Source of the DNA: a virus | DNA: 20,632 nt | Reading direction: 5' to 3' (one strand) | Virus record (IMG/VR): IMGVR_UViG_3300032086_004221 | Coordinates: 1 to 20,632 of that record | Shown: positions 4,565 through 19,829 of the stretch, one piece after another | How positions within the stretch are numbered: position 1 is the first letter of the stretch | How the letters are laid out: each line of letters starts with the position of its first letter | Notes under the pieces: model-generated | Databases searched by the model: none | Told to the model about the DNA's origin: nothing | The model's input: only the letters and a program-made list of their open reading frames with translations | Made by a program: the position numbers and the translations under genes

Positions 4565-4650
4565 CAATAAGTCTCAGATAGTTGTTCTACAGAATAAGCT
4601 AGCAATACAAAAAATGCAATGCTAGTTGTGGTGAAAATAATTTCAGACAT
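4564..4650 (-). CDS. Single-span micro-protein, 28 aa, between two hli-operon genes
   Basis: The ORF encodes MSEIIFTTTSIAFFVLLAYS followed by VEQLSETY. It is one short transmembrane helix with almost no other sequence, the architecture of low-molecular-weight photosystem II, photosystem I and cytochrome b6f subunits. Both ends are fixed by TGATG overlaps, with Hli upstream and the 73-aa gene downstream, which is strong evidence that it is translated. The likeness to PetM- or PsbM-type subunits is in size and topology only; the sequence does not let me name it. Confidence 0.7.
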   Translation of the reverse strand: MSEIIFTTTSIAFFVLLAYSVEQLSETY

Positions 4651-4868
4651 CAGAATCCGAAAGCACCAAAGAAAAATACACTACCAGTAGTAGCATAGCT
4701 GACGATAGCAGCAATAAATCCAAGCATAGCAGTACGTCCATTTAACTTCTCCGCACGTTCTGCATAGGTCTCATATCCATAACGCTCGGCATCAGATTTA
4801 GAGATGTACATCTGAGGCTCTTTGGCAAACATGTTCTGTTGCCCAAACTCATTTGTTGTTACGGTCAT
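4650..4868 (-). CDS. hli: High-light-inducible protein (Hli), 72 aa
   Basis: The C-terminal half is a full Hli helix: AERAEKLNGRTAMLGFIAAI with E40, N43, G44, R45, M48 and G50, followed by the TTG turn (60-62) and a hydrophobic FFFGAFGF end. Residues 1-35 are a polar extension that may reach into the stroma. The protein is expected in the thylakoid membrane, where Hli proteins bind pigments and protect or help assemble photosystems. It is the first gene after the consensus promoter at 4895-4923 and overlaps the 28-aa gene as TGATG. No ribosome-binding site is visible before its ATG. Confidence 0.95.
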   Translation of the reverse strand: MTVTTNEFGQQNMFAKEPQMYISKSDAERYGYETYAERAEKLNGRTAMLGFIAAIVSYATTGSVFFFGAFGF

Positions 4869-13766: not shown

Positions 13767-14479
13767 TTTGATCTCTCCTTACATAATTTAACTATATCAG
13801 GGTCAGTTGATTGTTCCTCTGTTGGTACAAAAAGTGCCCTATATCTTTCTTCAGTGTTTTCGTCCACATCAGTTAGATAATAAACTGCAAGACTTTTTCT
13901 ATATTTTCCCTCTGGACAGGTCAGTGGTTTAGGTAATCCATGCCATGAATTCTGTGTAGTATCAAACAGGATTGCTCTATTGAACTTAGGTTCAATAGTT
14001 TTGATCAACTCTTTGGGTCTATTTGTTTCTGAATTATTTGACCATAATTCAAGACCACCACCCCAAGTAGAATCCCAGACATCGGACATATACACAATTA
14101 AGTTAAGTTTTCTCTGTAATTTTAACTTAGGGTGAATTGAATAATCTTTATGAATGTTTAAATTGCCACCCCTACCATGAATATGAAGACCGCCACCATG
14201 CAATCCATAGTCTGGATATAAGTTCTTAATACCAGTCATCGACTTAATAGTCTCAATGAAATCATTAGAACACAAGTCCTGCAGTGTCTTATAGATCTCT
14301 GGAGGAAATCTCAACCAGTGTTGCAAAGTCTTCTTATTTTCAATTGGATTTTCATAAAAAAACCACCTCTCATCATCATAATCAGGAAAGTTTTCAGTTA
14401 TCCTTTGTGCTTTATCAGGGGAAAAGAAGTCGTCAATAATCCAATGGTCAAAAGGTTCTTCATACGTTGATAAGGTCAT
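13763..14479 (-). CDS. 2-oxoglutarate/Fe(II) oxygenase (HxD type)
   Basis: A 238-aa 2OG oxygenase. The triad is H110 and D112 in LNIHKDYS and H180 in QNSWHGLP; R194 in KYRKSLAVYYL would hold 2-oxoglutarate. STWGGGLELW is the family strand between them. Enzymes of this shape hydroxylate protein side chains or small molecules and are frequent next to glycosyltransferase genes in phages and marine bacteria. It is distinct from the PhyH protein at 10779 and the HxE protein at 581. It overlaps the GT2 gene before it by 20 nt. Confidence 0.85.
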   Translation of the reverse strand: MTLSTYEEPFDHWIIDDFFSPDKAQRITENFPDYDDERWFFYENPIENKKTLQHWLRFPPEIYKTLQDLCSNDFIETIKSMTGIKNLYPDYGLHGGGLHIHGRGGNLNIHKDYSIHPKLKLQRKLNLIVYMSDVWDSTWGGGLELWSNNSETNRPKELIKTIEPKFNRAILFDTTQNSWHGLPKPLTCPEGKYRKSLAVYYLTDVDENTEERYRALFVPTEEQSTDPDIVKLCKERSK

Positions 14480-15173
14480 ACTTTTCCTTACAGTATTTTG
14501 TTTCTTTCTCTACATAATATTCCCTATTCTTATGAGAAACATTAGTAGTCACAGAATATTCACCAACTCTATTCGATATCAATACATCATTTAAAAAAAT
14601 AGGTTGTCCATACTTTTCATTCATCCCATAGTAAAATTCACAGTCCATAAAGTAAACCAAGGTTTCATCAAATCTATTCGATACTTCTTTTCGGAAAGAG
14701 AGTACAGATGGAGAGCTGATAGAATTTATACCTTCAAGGAGATTGTCATTCCATTTGGGATACATTTCCCAATAGAAAGAATGACCATCATCTTGCGTAT
14801 GATTACATCCATTAACTAACCACATTTCATCATTATTTTTGAATTCATTATAAATTTTTTCTAGTGCTTCATCATCATAAAAAAAGTCATCTTGAAACAT
14901 TACCTTGATAATGTCCCCAGAACACATATCAATTGCTCTATTTGTATTTGCAGGACCATTCCCTCGATTTTCTTCATTTCTGGTATAAAGAATATTGATT
15001 CTATCTTCAAATTCTTTTATCTTGTCAAGAACTTCGTTGTTCTCACTGTGATCAGAAATACAAACCTCATAATCTTTAAATGTTTGTATTTCAATAGTTC
15101 TTAATAGATCATCAATAAATTCTGATCCTTTCCCATAAGACTCCCAAGTTGGAACTGCTATTGATATTTTCAT
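14460..15173 (-). CDS. Glycosyltransferase family 2
   Basis: A 237-aa GT2 protein. The first strand and UDP-binding loop are ISIAVPTWESYG, followed by VCISDHSENN (motif with the first Asp), NRGNGPANTNRAIDMCSGDI, and MFQDDFFYDD as the DxD. The C-terminal part includes SSPSVLSFRKEV and NDVLISNRVGEY. It probably adds one sugar to the phage-directed glycan. It lies 24 nt after the GDPD-like gene, the largest spacing inside the cluster. I see no terminator or convincing promoter there. Confidence 0.9.
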   Translation of the reverse strand: MKISIAVPTWESYGKGSEFIDDLLRTIEIQTFKDYEVCISDHSENNEVLDKIKEFEDRINILYTRNEENRGNGPANTNRAIDMCSGDIIKVMFQDDFFYDDEALEKIYNEFKNNDEMWLVNGCNHTQDDGHSFYWEMYPKWNDNLLEGINSISSPSVLSFRKEVSNRFDETLVYFMDCEFYYGMNEKYGQPIFLNDVLISNRVGEYSVTTNVSHKNREYYVEKETKYCKEKYDLINV

Positions 15174-15197: not shown

Positions 15198-15692
15198 TTA
15201 TAAGTAATCAGAAACTTCATTTAATTCTCTTCGGTAATAATTACATTTATCTGTACAGATTCCATGAGTCCTAAGGATTCTGTCGTATTTACCCTCGTAT
15301 TTATCGTAATACGAAATAGACTCAGGTAAAACAATGATCGAATTATTATATGGTATTTGTCCCACTAATACCCATCCAACACCCTTATTAGTTAAAGCAT
15401 ACCTATCATTTTCATGATAAAAGTAATGCAAATTCATGACTGTAGAAGAGCAAAACTCTAAAGATTCACGATCTTTACAGTGAATCCAGAGTCTTTCTCT
15501 ATTTTTATACAACCATCCAAGTTTTAGTGGATATTGTGCCTTATCATGTCCAAGATAAAGTCTTTTATCTTTTACTCTTAGATCAATCTCTACATCATAA
15601 CCCAATTCCAACGCTTCGTCAATATAGTCTGGACTATTCTCCCTTTCAGGATTTATTCCATCTACATTTCCACGGTGAGCAATAATAATCAT
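15198..15692 (-). CDS. Small GDPD-like protein (glycerophosphodiesterase fold)
   Basis: A 164-aa protein with the glycerophosphodiester phosphodiesterase signature: IIIAHRGN (H6, R7), EN at 18-19, YDVEIDLRV (E35, D37) and LYLGHD (H49, D50). Full GDPD enzymes have about 240 residues or more, so part of the barrel is missing or reduced. Short proteins of this kind are found in capsule loci, often near a nucleotidyltransferase, as I remember them. The retained His/Glu/Asp residues suggest that a phosphodiester or sugar phosphate is bound or cut. It starts one base after the RuBisCO-like gene, which suggests a shared pathway. Confidence 0.8.
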   Translation of the reverse strand: MIIIAHRGNVDGINPERENSPDYIDEALELGYDVEIDLRVKDKRLYLGHDKAQYPLKLGWLYKNRERLWIHCKDRESLEFCSSTVMNLHYFYHENDRYALTNKGVGWVLVGQIPYNNSIIVLPESISYYDKYEGKYDRILRTHGICTDKCNYYRRELNEVSDYL

Positions 15693-15693
15693 A

Positions 15694-16932
15694 TCAAAAC
15701 TCTAAAACCCACTCTGGTAGAGATCCACCACCAGTTTCATAACCCCACTTATCGATAGCATCGCGGAACTCTTCTCCAGGGGTCTTATCAATCGCTTGTC
15801 GCATTGCCAAAGCACCTGATAAAGTTCCGCCAGGATGACCGTGAACAGCACCACCACAGTTTGCTAGAAAGTCAGTTCCAAACTTCTCAGCGGTGGTATT
15901 AACGATGCCTGGATGCATACCACAACTGAGTGCCGGTAAAACATTTCTATGATGTAAAGTGCCCATCACAGTATGCAGTTCTGCTTCATCATCACTCAAG
16001 TATCCACCCCACATACCAGCATGAATAGTATCAACTCCACATAGACCTGCAAGATCACAAAGAACACTCCAATCAATACCAAAGTTGTGACGCTTATCAG
16101 TCAGAATCTTATCTCCACTCTTCTGATAGTGAACGAACAGTGGTAGATCCATCTTCCTTACAGAATTATAGACACCTAGTCCACTCCAGAAATTGATATG
16201 AATACCGTTACCACCATTATCTGCAACAAACTTTGCACGATTAAGAATAGTGTGATGATCACCATTAATACAGAAGCAGTAAATTACTCCCCTACCACAT
16301 TCATTAATAAGATTTGAAATAAGTTCTACACGATCCTCAAGACGACAAAAAGATGGGTTGGAAAGAATCTCATCCTCTTTAATAAAGTCCACTCCACCGT
16401 CAAGAAGTTCTTTGACCATCTCCGAAAGAGTTTGTGGAGAAATTCCAGTTTTTGGTTTTACAATAGCACCAGAAAGTGGTCTATCATAACGATTAACAAA
16501 CTTACGGATACCATCAATACCATACTTAGGTCCCAAGAACTGTACTTCAACATCAGCAGGAAAGTCAAGTTTCCTAAGTCTACATGTTTTGAAGACATCA
16601 ATATCAAGTTGACCTCCCATTAGCTGACACAACAAATGAGAGATACCGTCACCATCCCAGTCGGTATTAACTTTTGGAAAACCAATCTTGACTTCTCCAG
16701 AAGTCATAGTTGTCAATTTATCTTCGTCATCATATATGACACATGAAGCGAGTTCAAATAATTCGTCACTTTCCCAACGATTGCGAACCTTTGGATTTCC
16801 AACACTTTGACCAATAGCAAGAGCCCAAGCAGCATCACGAAGATTTCCTAAGTCTTGATATGTTTCAATATAAAATGTTGCTATCACGCAACGATTCTTT
16901 TCTACCTCAGTCAGTTCTCTAAAAAATTCCAT
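15694..16932 (-). CDS. RuBisCO-like protein (RLP), 412 aa
   Basis: The whole length aligns by eye with the RuBisCO large subunit. Retained active-site residues are K159 and K161 (GAIVKPKTGIS; spinach K175, K177), the carbamate lysine K185 with D187 and E188 (DFIKEDE; K201, D203, E204), H268 (H294), H304 (TIHAG; H327), S336 (S379) and G360-G361. The loop-6 lysine needed for carboxylation (K334) is Y311, and R295 is Y269. This pattern fits a form IV-like RLP: Mg-dependent enolate chemistry on a phosphorylated substrate without CO2 fixation. Known RLPs are enolases or isomerases of methylthioribose salvage and decarboxylases or transcarboxylases of apiose routes. Here it overlaps a cupin gene by 14 nt inside a glycan cluster. 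The gene is richer in GC than its neighbours. The reaction is unknown. Confidence 0.9.
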   Translation of the reverse strand: MEFFRELTEVEKNRCVIATFYIETYQDLGNLRDAAWALAIGQSVGNPKVRNRWESDELFELASCVIYDDEDKLTTMTSGEVKIGFPKVNTDWDGDGISHLLCQLMGGQLDIDVFKTCRLRKLDFPADVEVQFLGPKYGIDGIRKFVNRYDRPLSGAIVKPKTGISPQTLSEMVKELLDGGVDFIKEDEILSNPSFCRLEDRVELISNLINECGRGVIYCFCINGDHHTILNRAKFVADNGGNGIHINFWSGLGVYNSVRKMDLPLFVHYQKSGDKILTDKRHNFGIDWSVLCDLAGLCGVDTIHAGMWGGYLSDDEAELHTVMGTLHHRNVLPALSCGMHPGIVNTTAEKFGTDFLANCGGAVHGHPGGTLSGALAMRQAIDKTPGEEFRDAIDKWGYETGGGSLPEWVLEF

Positions 16933-17254
16933 TTGTTACCTCAAATTTGTCAGTTGGTATGGATGGAACTTTTACACAGACTACTCTACAGTCCTCATGA
17001 AATACTGGGTCTGCCACTTCTCCCTTTCCAAATACAAAAACATCTCCGGAATTTAATTCTGTTCCCTGAATGGTCATACGACCTTCAATCAAGACATTAT
17101 ATTCTACACACTCCTTATGATAATGTGCTGGCCATTTTTCATCTTTTTTGTGTGTTAAAACAGCAACTTCAAAATCTTTTGTTTTCAAAAGACTTGGTTC
17201 AAAGTTACCAATAAAATAACCTCGAACATAATCACTCAACTTAGTCACATTCAT
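16919..17254 (-). CDS. Small single-domain cupin
   Basis: A 111-aa cupin. Motif 1 is WPAHYHKECVEYNVLIEGRM with H44, H46 and E51 as metal ligands; motif 2 has H86 in VADPVFHEDC. A glycine turn (LNSGDVFVFGKGEV) lies between them. Single cupins of this size are metal-dependent isomerases, epimerases, dioxygenases or binding proteins of sugar phosphates or acids. Overlaps of 4 nt with the nucleotidyltransferase and 14 nt with the RLP tie it to both. It probably acts on the same small molecule, but the reaction cannot be told from sequence. Confidence 0.85.
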   Translation of the reverse strand: MNVTKLSDYVRGYFIGNFEPSLLKTKDFEVAVLTHKKDEKWPAHYHKECVEYNVLIEGRMTIQGTELNSGDVFVFGKGEVADPVFHEDCRVVCVKVPSIPTDKFEVTNGIF

Positions 17255-17964
17255 AATTTATCTAGATAAGTTTTTAAGTCTTCTGGAACTCCAACTGGAT
17301 TGTGCTGTTCGTTGGGAATATGATGAACTCCAATTGAAAAACCTTTCTTAATCATATAATTATATGTTGGTCCAACATAGAATTCTCCGTTAGGAGCTCT
17401 GTCATCAGATTCTATCATATCTAGAGCACTTTGCACAAAGTATTTTCCCTTTCTCCAATAATGAATACCATTCAAAGAAATATTACTAAGAACAATTTTC
17501 TCGCGTATTTCAGTAACAAATCCTTCTCTATCAATTTTTGCGTAACTGTTCTTCTCAGTATTTGTGTAATAAGTAACTACTACACCATCATACTTATAGT
17601 ATCTGGATGTTATTAGAAAAAGTTCTGGATCCCACCACATAATTTGATCACAGTTACAAATTACAAGTTCTTCTTCATTGTCAATATAATCTTTAAATAA
17701 AAGACAACTTGAAGCTGGCCCTTCTGTTGTTTCTTCTACGGATATTATTTTAGCTGAAGGTAGAATAGTATGCAACAATGTACATACTTGATCATAGTAA
17801 CTATCTTTTCTAATAATAAAATGATATGTTCCCACCATACCTAATGATTCTATTGCACATTGAATCATTGGTTTGCCATTAATATCAATCAGTGGTTTTG
17901 GTATTTTGTATTTGTCTCTGGGAAATCTAGTCCCCTCACCTGCCATTGGAATTATTATATTCAT
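17251..17964 (-). CDS. Sugar/polyol-phosphate nucleotidyltransferase
   Basis: A 237-aa NTP-transferase protein. The signature is NIIIPMAGEGTRFPRDKYKI with the glycine loop and R13, then PKPLIDINGKPMI with K23, and CNCDQIMWWD with D106 for the metal. The family activates sugar phosphates or related phosphates as NDP derivatives. Relatives with the same start are found in capsule loci, including Campylobacter cytidylyltransferases that activate non-sugar groups, so CTP and an unusual substrate are possible. It overlaps the methyltransferase-like gene and the cupin gene by 4 nt each. The substrate is probably made by the cupin and the RLP, which is an inference from gene order. Confidence 0.88.
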   Translation of the reverse strand: MNIIIPMAGEGTRFPRDKYKIPKPLIDINGKPMIQCAIESLGMVGTYHFIIRKDSYYDQVCTLLHTILPSAKIISVEETTEGPASSCLLFKDYIDNEEELVICNCDQIMWWDPELFLITSRYYKYDGVVVTYYTNTEKNSYAKIDREGFVTEIREKIVLSNISLNGIHYWRKGKYFVQSALDMIESDDRAPNGEFYVGPTYNYMIKKGFSIGVHHIPNEQHNPVGVPEDLKTYLDKL

Positions 17965-18590
17965 TTTTTTCTAGCAAATCCAATGCCCCAATCTTCTGGG
18001 CAACAGTTTTCTATAACATCCCATTTACCTTTATCAAGTGCTTTAATAAAGTTATTAGGACCAGGATGACATGAGGTATCATGAAATCCAACAATACCTC
18101 CATCAGCAAGAAGATTAGTATATTCCCAATCAGTCAAAACTTGATTAATACTATGCCACCCATCAATAAAAATAAAATCAAATTTTTCTACACCAATTGT
18201 TTTAAAAATTTCAACATTTTCATGATAATATGAACTGTTATTTTGAACAGTATGAATATTATTTTCAGAATCTCTTAAAAAAGAACGATCATCAATATCT
18301 AATCCAATATAAAAAGTATTCTTTTTTTTGTTCTTAAAAAATACATACGCAAAGGATTCTTCAGCGTTTCTACCAATACCAATTTCCAATATTGCCTTAC
18401 AATTGTCACGAACTTTATTAAATTGTTCTAAAAGATGATATCTATTACAATGAGTTACTTCTTTGGGATAGACGATTTCATTATCAATTATTTTATGCCG
18501 ATACCCCAATGGATGTGGAACACCACCATCTTGATCATCAAACTCAGTAAAAGTTCTAATATCTTTGATTAAATCAGATTTCCATTTCAT
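17961..18590 (-). CDS. SAM-methyltransferase-like protein (Methyltransf_24/CmcI type)
   Basis: A 209-aa Rossmann protein. ILEIGIGRNAEESFAYVFF is SAM motif I, FYIGLDIDDRSF motif II, and FDFIFIDGWHSINQVLTDWE the acidic motif with the following helix; GGIVGFHDTSCHPGP is typical of the CmcI/cephalosporin-hydroxylase-like group. An O-methyltransferase acting on a sugar is the likely reading. The start overlaps the GT11 remnant by 17 nt and the end overlaps the nucleotidyltransferase as ATGA. It is one of the most AT-rich genes of the cluster: one 60-base line at 18181 has 12 G or C. Confidence 0.8.
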   Translation of the reverse strand: MKWKSDLIKDIRTFTEFDDQDGGVPHPLGYRHKIIDNEIVYPKEVTHCNRYHLLEQFNKVRDNCKAILEIGIGRNAEESFAYVFFKNKKKNTFYIGLDIDDRSFLRDSENNIHTVQNNSSYYHENVEIFKTIGVEKFDFIFIDGWHSINQVLTDWEYTNLLADGGIVGFHDTSCHPGPNNFIKALDKGKWDVIENCCPEDWGIGFARKK

Positions 18591-18743: not shown

Positions 18744-19829
18744 TCAAACTGGGTAACGAAAAACATTTTTAGATGATGATTCAAAAGTTTTATAGGAAAT
18801 CTGCTTACCAATCCAAGTATATGTCTTGCGAATACCCTCTTCAAGAGTTTGAGAATAATCCCATCCAAGTTTTTCACGGATTAAATCATTGTTGGAGTTA
18901 CGACCACGCACACCCAGAGGACCATCAATGTGAAGTTTTTGAACATCTTTACCAGCAACTTTAGCAACAGTCTCCACCAATTGATTGATAGTAACCATCT
19001 CTTCGGAACCAATATTAACAGGACCAATGAAGTCACTATCCATCAACCGTCGAGTTGCTTCAATGCATTCATCAATGAACAAGAAGGAACGAGTCTGTAA
19101 GCCATCTCCCCACACCTCAATTGCTCCACCCTCCTCCGGAAGGTAAGCGACTTTACGGCAGATTGCAGCTGGTGCCTTCTCTCTTCCACCTTCCCAGGTT
19201 CCTTCGGGACCAAAGATGTTATGATATCTAGCAATGCGAACAGGAATACTATAATTCCTATTGTAAGCAAGGTACAGACGTTCGGAAAATAACTTTTCCC
19301 ATCCATATTCCGAATCTGGGTCTGCTGGATATGCGGATTCTTCACGACAATCGGGGTTATCAGGGTCAAGTTGGTTGTGTTCTGGATACATGCAAGCAGA
19401 TCCAGAATAGAAAATCTTAGTCTTATTTCCTACAGTCTCATTAAACTTTCGTTGTTCCTCAAGAACATTCAGATTGATAGTGACAGAGTTGTGCATAATG
19501 TCTGCATCGTTCTCTCCAGTAAAAACGAAACCTGCACCACCCATATCAGCAGCAAACTGATAAATCTCATCAAATGGACGATAATATCTTTCGGGTACAC
19601 TTGCGTAAAAATTACCAAGATACCCCTTAAATCGAAGACAACGACGAACAAAGTTTACATCACAAAGATCTCCCTGCACAAATTCATGTGCTTTAGTTCC
19701 AGAAAACTCAGGAGTCTTAAGATCTACACCACGAACCCAATATCCTTCGGACTTAAGTCTCTCGACCATATGACTTCCTATAAATCCACCAGCACCAAGA
19801 ACTAGTGCTGTCTTCTTAAATTCAGACAT
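18744..19829 (-). CDS. gme: GDP-mannose 3,5-epimerase
   Basis: A 361-aa extended SDR matching plant-type GME along its length. Visible are GAGGFIGSH (12-20), FAADMGGAGF, SGSACMYPE with S143 and C145, YGWEK with Y174 and K178, and HNIFGPEGTWEGGREKAPAA with K217. C145 and K217 are the residues known as acid/base pair in the plant enzyme. WGDGLQTRSFLFIDECIEA and NIGSEEMV complete the family pattern. The enzyme turns GDP-D-mannose into GDP-L-galactose or GDP-L-gulose in the cytoplasm. It is the first gene of the cluster, about 18 nt from the predicted transcription start, without a clear ribosome-binding site. Its GC content is higher than that of the following genes. Confidence 0.93.
   Translation of the reverse strand: MSEFKKTALVLGAGGFIGSHMVERLKSEGYWVRGVDLKTPEFSGTKAHEFVQGDLCDVNFVRRCLRFKGYLGNFYASVPERYYRPFDEIYQFAADMGGAGFVFTGENDADIMHNSVTINLNVLEEQRKFNETVGNKTKIFYSGSACMYPEHNQLDPDNPDCREESAYPADPDSEYGWEKLFSERLYLAYNRNYSIPVRIARYHNIFGPEGTWEGGREKAPAAICRKVAYLPEEGGAIEVWGDGLQTRSFLFIDECIEATRRLMDSDFIGPVNIGSEEMVTINQLVETVAKVAGKDVQKLHIDGPLGVRGRNSNNDLIREKLGWDYSQTLEEGIRKTYTWIGKQISYKTFESSSKNVFRYPV

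Follow-up and report, generated by a model that had tools for sequence, protein, structure and literature searches.

The 20,632-nt viral contig IMGVR_UViG_3300032086_004221 – the window, by which we mean the whole of this stretch of DNA – encodes a RuBisCO-like protein (RLP) within a tight cassette that also specifies a sugar nucleotidyltransferase (NTP), a cupin, a GDPD-like phosphodiesterase and a methyltransferase. The explanation that best accounts for the whole, and that we hold with rather more confidence than doubt, is that this cassette represents one form of a modular pathway for sugar activation, set in a cyanophage glycan cluster. Within such a pathway the RLP probably makes an activated-sugar precursor for coating glycans. 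The argument draws on the identities of the genes, the co-occurrence of RLP and NTP, the exchange of the RLP for other enzymes at the same position, the loss of carboxylation residues, and purifying selection.

Membership of the RLP (412 aa; positions 15694-16932, minus strand) in the RuBisCO superfamily is evident from a PF00016 match of 148.1 bits (cut-off 30.1) and from a RuBisCO fold: the AlphaFold2 model, a single chain without ligand, has a pLDDT of 93.6, and its nearest solved structures in Foldseek are form III RuBisCOs (template modelling (TM) score 0.86 to 3a12). Active-site positions (RuBisCO numbering) were located through HMMER alignments to PDB chains and counted in 34 members of the family. 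All 34 retain K175, K177, K201, D203, E204, S379, G381 and G403, all 34 carry the replacements E60G, T65N, W66P, T173I, H294Q and K334Y, and position N123 is Gln in 28 and His in 6. In place of T65, H294, R295 and K334, which in bona fide RuBisCOs (forms I-III) serve carboxylation and phosphate binding, the family has Asn, Gln, Lys (30/34) and Tyr. The group of retained residues helps to bind the metal and to enolise the substrate; H294 and K334 belong to carboxylation. The same invariant replacements, found from phages to archaea, argue for a single activity common to the family and other than carboxylation, a reaction that, judged from these residues, this RLP is unlikely to perform.

The family is also distinct as a lineage. 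It forms one clade (support 100/99) apart from forms I, II and III, OiaX-type RLPs and 4nas, in a tree that left out Deep-Ykr RLPs and took among its references the yield of a plasmid search, which comprised only other RLPs and RuBisCOs (at most 33% identical among the matches listed). Scored with a model of the family, members reach 448-668 bits, whereas no other RuBisCO-type gene of the Azospirillum genome that has a member exceeds 122. The ratio of nonsynonymous to synonymous substitution rates (dN/dS) against close relatives is 0.04-0.08: the RLP is under strong purifying selection.

The remaining genes fit a role in sugar activation. All lie on the minus strand, transcribed in the order NTP, cupin, RLP, GDPD-like gene. 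The NTP (237 aa; 17251-17964) is identified by PF00483 (33.9 bits; cut-off 21.2) and by conserved GxGxRF, NCDQ and EK motifs. The cupin (111 aa; 16919-17254) is a single domain that scores below the Cupin_7 cut-off (17.3 bits against 27), matches phrog_24762 and has an HxH...E metal motif conserved across 24 sequences; it is a putative sugar or sugar-phosphate isomerase or epimerase. The GDPD-like protein (164 aa; 15198-15692) gave no Pfam match; it has the HRG...E-D...HD catalytic residues of GDPDs (H6 R7 G8, E35, D37 and H49 D50, invariant in 24 sequences) and a GDPD-type fold. Its model, likewise a ligand-free single chain, has a pLDDT of 93.3, and its best Foldseek matches are GDPDs, led by that of P. 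furiosus, at moderate TM scores (TMq 0.56-0.66); the chain is some 90 aa shorter than these best solved matches. NTP and cupin overlap by 4 nt and cupin and RLP by 14 nt, 1 nt separates the RLP from the GDPD-like gene, and 24 nt precede the next glycosyltransferase (start 15173). In all these genes, coordinates and spacings the preliminary description agrees exactly with the open reading frame (ORF) list. A methyltransferase ORF (MT209; 17961-18590, minus strand; PF13578 Methyltransf_24, 30.5 bits) also overlaps the NTP by 4 nt, which makes the tight run one of five genes.

A second body of evidence is the company that the RLP keeps. A search of IMG/VR with the window RLP found 240 viral loci in ocean and lake phages, by which the gene is widely carried (54-95% identity over best segments, among the matches listed). 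Eighty were kept for counts and joined to 21 RLP loci from cellular genome records, giving 101; the search patterns came from the window RLP, so that distant members are under-sampled. Within 5 kb of the RLP the viral loci carry an NTP in 77 of 80, a cupin in 67, a GDPD in 66 and a methyltransferase in 33; the corresponding cellular counts are 19 of 21 for NTP, 12 for GDPD and 5 for cupin. In all 96 loci with an NTP match it lies on the RLP strand. When every ORF around the RLP was clustered, the family ranking next after these four occurred in 24 of the 101 loci. Four of the five loci that lack an NTP have contig ends near the RLP (L002, L022, L094 and L109); the fifth, L076, is a real exception to which we return.

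Gene order around this pair varies. Most phages have NTP-cupin-RLP-GDPD, Legionella and Nanoarchaeia have RLP-NTP, many SAR11 loci have GDPD-NTPlike-RLP-NTP, and Elusimicrobia, Azospirillum and one Sphingobacteriales metagenome-assembled genome (MAG) have RLP-cupin-NTP. The cupin is missing at Legionella, SAR11 and archaeal loci, and the GDPD at those of Legionella. Co-occurrence and varied order together indicate that RLP and NTP form the core, with GDPD and cupin frequent and not obligate. The cassette thus recurs with varying flanks, as had been predicted, and the RLP is almost never without an NTP; the notion of an obligate four-gene unit gives way to that of a two-gene core with companions, the methyltransferase being part of the block in the window. 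Nor is the pathway confined to phages, as had been proposed. Cellular hosts include, among bacteria, SAR11, Crocinitomicaceae, Verrucomicrobia, Elusimicrobia, Azospirillum, Legionella, Sphingobacteriales and an alphaproteobacterium, and, among archaea, Pacearchaeota, Nanoarchaeia and Woesearchaeota; contigs from MAGs and single cells in this group may be of phage or other foreign origin in part. In SAR11 the gene is rare (2 of 297 genomes in an order-wide search). A second, degenerate NTP-like protein stands just before the RLP in SAR11 (L096, 1396-2133, with equivalents in L097-L102); the L096 copy lacks the GxGxRF motif, that of L099 has no Pfam match, and the protein is possibly a regulatory or repurposed subunit.

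The most informative loci are those in which the RLP has been exchanged. With the window cupin as query instead, 80 loci were obtained, a sample ordered by similarity to that cupin and overlapping the RLP sample; 79 of them have an NTP and 66 an RLP. Among the 14 without an RLP, 11 read NTP-cupin-PMM-GDPD, a gene of the phosphomannomutase (PMM) family occupying the RLP position (two copies were tested and scored 72 and 68 bits with Pfam, cut-off 22.4; the rest are 44-93% identical to one of these). Of the others, one is cut by a contig end, L200 has an NTP-HAD fusion followed by cupin and GDPD, and in L192 the cupin adjoins an NTP-HAD fusion. Isolate cyanophages without an RLP extend the series: S-CAM9 has a HAD-NTP, Bellamy an NTP-RpiB accompanied by cupin and GDPD, and S-SKS1 an NTP-RibB. 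NTP-RpiB occurs in 29 further IMG/VR loci, and the RibB part of the S-SKS1 fusion in 10 loci; S-SKS1-type loci gave no GDPD or cupin match. The RpiB and RibB domains exceed their curated cut-offs (TIGR00689, 104.9 against 88.3; TIGR00506, 188.1 against 177.45). Given that the slot enzymes – PMM, beta-phosphoglucomutase (beta-PGM)-like HAD (to judge by its family), RpiB and RibB – turn one phosphosugar into another, the simplest expectation is that the RLP does likewise. Mantel correlations of distances over 38 dereplicated loci (all p=0.001) are 0.80 for NTP-cupin, 0.42 for RLP-NTP, 0.41 for RLP-cupin and 0.38 for RLP-GDPD. The cupin, found also without the RLP, follows the NTP more closely than the RLP, and to judge from these distances the backbone seems to consist of NTP and cupin, with the RLP as an interchangeable part.

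The fusion in phage S-SKS1 (L086, 5001-6428) joins a sugar nucleotidyltransferase to a domain of riboflavin-type DHBP synthase that passes its curated cut-off, which suggests an activated four-carbon keto-sugar. Elsewhere (L228, 3797-9320) an NTP-RpiB stands with a KdsC-like phosphatase, a PfkB kinase fragment and a relative of heptose-7-phosphate kinase (292.6 bits, cut-off 600), perhaps a heptose version.

Legionella is a second, independent case of RLP exchange. The RLP is present in 4 of 22 searched genomes of the genus, each time as an RLP-NTP pair beside a divergent LicD gene. In four RLP-less genomes (L252-L255) a LicD relative (67-68%) is followed by a HAD-NTP fusion with the domain order of cyanophage S-CAM9 (beta-PGM-like HAD, then NTP), the two genes overlapping by 4 nt in L252; three further genomes of the genus have LicD and no NTP match alongside. 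At the RLP loci themselves the link to LicD is weak, the gene being divergent to the RLP; it gains strength from the position of LicD directly before HAD-NTP in the RLP-less genomes. Relatives of LicD transfer phosphorylated groups from cytidine diphosphate (CDP) donors. This hints at a phosphodiester-linked decoration, which would be a plausible substrate for the GDPD-like protein.

In the phage lineage of the window the five genes constitute an exchangeable block. The marine virus AG-345-L05 (L128) is syntenic with the window, flanking proteins being 59-80% identical: on one side GT2 (74%), a 2OG oxygenase, a TOD1-type glycosyltransferase, a methyltransferase and a glycosyltransferase, and on the other the epimerase (77%). 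In this virus the interval from epimerase to GT2 holds a fucosyltransferase, and all five genes are missing. The block is no chance arrangement, given its recurrence in many contexts and the low dN/dS of its RLP. In the window the first gene outside it is the glycosyltransferase of family 2 (14460-15173, minus strand; PF00535, 47.9 bits), and on the other flank lies a nucleotide-sugar epimerase of cyanophage type (18744-19829, minus strand; PF01370, 122.6 bits). The nucleotide matches of this epimerase gene to Kyanoviridae, together with the glycan cluster (GT2, GT11, GT25, DegT, PhyH and epimerase genes; many relatives sit in such clusters too), make a T4-like cyanophage the most likely origin. 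By eye, 4650-4868 presumably encodes a high-light-inducible-type protein, a kind typical of cyanophages. A promoter scan gave 25 candidates, not above the 27.4 in shuffles. Among 31 long RLP contigs or records, T4-type capsid gp23 was found in 6 and a terminase above cut-off in 7, where absence carries little weight, many of these being fragments; one very large contig (L057, 518,643 nt) has the RLP cassette together with gp23 and terminase. No RLP was found in isolate phages (tblastn in INPHARED), no viral RuBisCO or RLP in PHROGs, and no RuBisCO fold among the viral structures of BFVD.

How might the pathway operate? The RLP, acting as an isomerase or tautomerase and not as a carboxylase, would bind a ketose monophosphate, enolise it at the metal/carbamylated-lysine site and return a rearranged phosphosugar. 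The substrate would be a pentulose or related ketose phosphate and the reaction an isomerisation. The neighbouring NTP would couple the product to a nucleotide, yielding a nucleoside diphosphate (NDP) sugar; that the RLP supplies the NTP, and in this order, we draw from co-occurrence and slot exchange. The cupin would be an optional sugar isomerase or epimerase belonging with the NTP, transferases encoded nearby (in phages glycosyltransferases, in Legionella LicD) would attach the sugar to glycan, and the GDPD-like protein would hydrolyse a phosphodiester formed along the way. For the proposed isomerisation there is a precedent in the R. rubrum RLP, which isomerises methylthioribulose-1-phosphate (MTRu-1P; PMC4958253). 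The route sketched in the preliminary description was largely right: an RLP-made phosphosugar activated by the NTP fits the slot enzymes, most of them phosphosugar mutases or isomerases, but the cupin, which had been paired with the RLP, goes with the NTP.

Several observations weigh against this reading. L076 (6973-8919) reads cupin-RLP-GDPD with no NTP nearby, the sole intact break in the linkage. In a freshwater group the RLP is 82-84% identical to that of the window and the NTP and cupin only 36-48%, which means that RLP and NTP sometimes move independently. NTPs of different module types are about 30-50% identical, which means that slot exchange is no proof of a common substrate; PMM and beta-PGM act on hexoses and RpiB and RibB on pentoses, so that the slot points to no single substrate class; and the beta-PGM-like HAD is assigned by family resemblance, below its cut-off. 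A separate observation concerns freshwater loci (L033, 9241-11935), in which genes for an APH/fructosamine-type kinase, a dehydroquinate-synthase-like cyclase and a putative short-chain dehydrogenase come after the RLP; they may represent a cyclitol branch of the pathway.

Among alternative explanations, that of an RLP that decarboxylates or otherwise cleaves a carbon-carbon bond, handing a shortened phosphosugar to the NTP, deserves the most attention. OiaX, an RLP, decarboxylates, and RibB, which loses formate, is fused to a related NTP. Against this, the RLP scores 155 on the OiaX equivalog (NF042437; cut-off 700) and belongs to a separate clade, no four-carbon acid sugar kinase was noticed adjoining it, and PMM and RpiB of the same slot are non-cleaving; we regard cleavage as unlikely. 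Rather less probable is that the activated sugar serves DNA base modification and not glycans, like the arabinose or pentose of RB69- and Thanatos-type phages. The cassette is indeed carried by T4-like phages, and phage pyrophosphorylases serve cytosine glycosylation (PMC12838424), but the RLP occurs also in SAR11, Legionella, Azospirillum and archaeal records, and its neighbours are transferases of lipopolysaccharide (LPS) or capsule type, with LicD in Legionella. Methionine salvage, with RLP and cupin in the roles of the R. rubrum MTRu-1P isomerase and the cupin sulfurylase that follows it, has exactly such a pair as its model (PMC4958253). It is nonetheless highly improbable: SAR11, archaeal and Legionella loci have no cupin, and elsewhere the cupin occurs without the RLP, the constant partner is a nucleotidyltransferase, and scores on the MtnW equivalogs are far too low (166.3 against 409 for NF007095; 123.8 against 513.6 for TIGR03332). 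In viral metagenomes, 'rbcL' auxiliary genes are usually taken to mean a true RuBisCO with which the phage fixes CO2, and a landfill virome study lists viral rbcL under CO2 fixation (PMC12607003). The form III-like fold, carbamate lysine and metal ligands would suit this explanation, but the invariant Gln, Tyr and Asn at positions 294, 334 and 65, a score of 201.8 bits on the form III equivalog (TIGR03326; cut-off 497.45), a place outside the form I/II/III group and the glycan context render it scarcely credible. Equally hard to credit is that the RLP is a hitchhiker with no functional tie to the NTP, for the correlation of their divergence is moderate but their linkage holds in 96 of 101 loci over phages, bacteria and archaea despite altered gene order and under strong purifying selection.

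The activated-sugar pathway can be put in a bolder form, which we offer tentatively and think rather less likely true than false. The family would be a new RLP class that moves the carbonyl along a pentulose or heptulose monophosphate, in the manner of the R. rubrum RLP acting on a thio-sugar, to give a phosphosugar new to nucleotide-sugar metabolism; the NTP would convert this into a new NDP-ketose, placed on surface glycans partly via phosphodiesters, and the system would be spread mainly by T4-like phages. A literature search for CDP-xylulose in O-antigens returned only general papers and work on CDP-polyols.

These findings provide context and a testable function for a RuBisCO-like clade carried, by the searches made, mainly by phages, and the interchangeable slot (RLP, PMM, beta-PGM-like, RpiB, RibB) leaves a small number of candidate substrates. 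They show too that viral-metagenome 'rbcL' auxiliary genes need not imply CO2 fixation: published viral 'rbcL' genes annotated in this way cluster with 'RbcL-like' proteins (PMC12607003) and may belong to the family of the window RLP. If the proposed pathway is true, RuBisCO-fold chemistry operates in sugar activation, a role assigned to none of the relatives found.

Comparison with known systems places the cassette among several partial likenesses. Methionine-salvage RLPs (the MtnW enolase and the R. rubrum isomerase) share the fold, the carbamate-type lysine/metal site, the lack of carboxylation and an isomerase or enolase chemistry on ketose phosphates, and in R. rubrum even the pairing with a cupin; the window RLP differs in falling far below the MtnW cut-offs and in its nucleotidyltransferase partner within a glycan cluster. 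OiaX-type enzymes (3-oxo-isoapionate-4-phosphate decarboxylase and kin) are also RLPs and act on sugar-acid phosphates, but they belong to a separate clade, and most of those fetched adjoin four-carbon acid sugar kinases. Similar by description are the groups of RuBisCO homologues left unassigned in the Global Ocean Sampling data, which are marine, fall outside all known forms and were proposed as new RLP types (PMC1821046). Cyanophage clusters of LPS/O-antigen type, as in P-SSM2, contain nucleotide-sugar epimerases, cupins, kinases, nucleotidyltransferases and glycosyltransferases (PMC7824862), although the word RuBisCO is absent from the text of that survey. A similar logic is seen in the CDP-polyol pathways (CDP-ribitol in H. 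influenzae and S. aureus, CDP-6-glucitol in C. jejuni), in which a ketose phosphate is converted, joined to a nucleotide by a nucleotidyltransferase and then transferred to capsule (PMC10918830). There an NADPH reductase feeds the cytidylyltransferase; no reductase is among the recurrent families in the clustering of neighbours at the 101 loci, and here RLP, PMM, RpiB, RibB or HAD seems to take its place.

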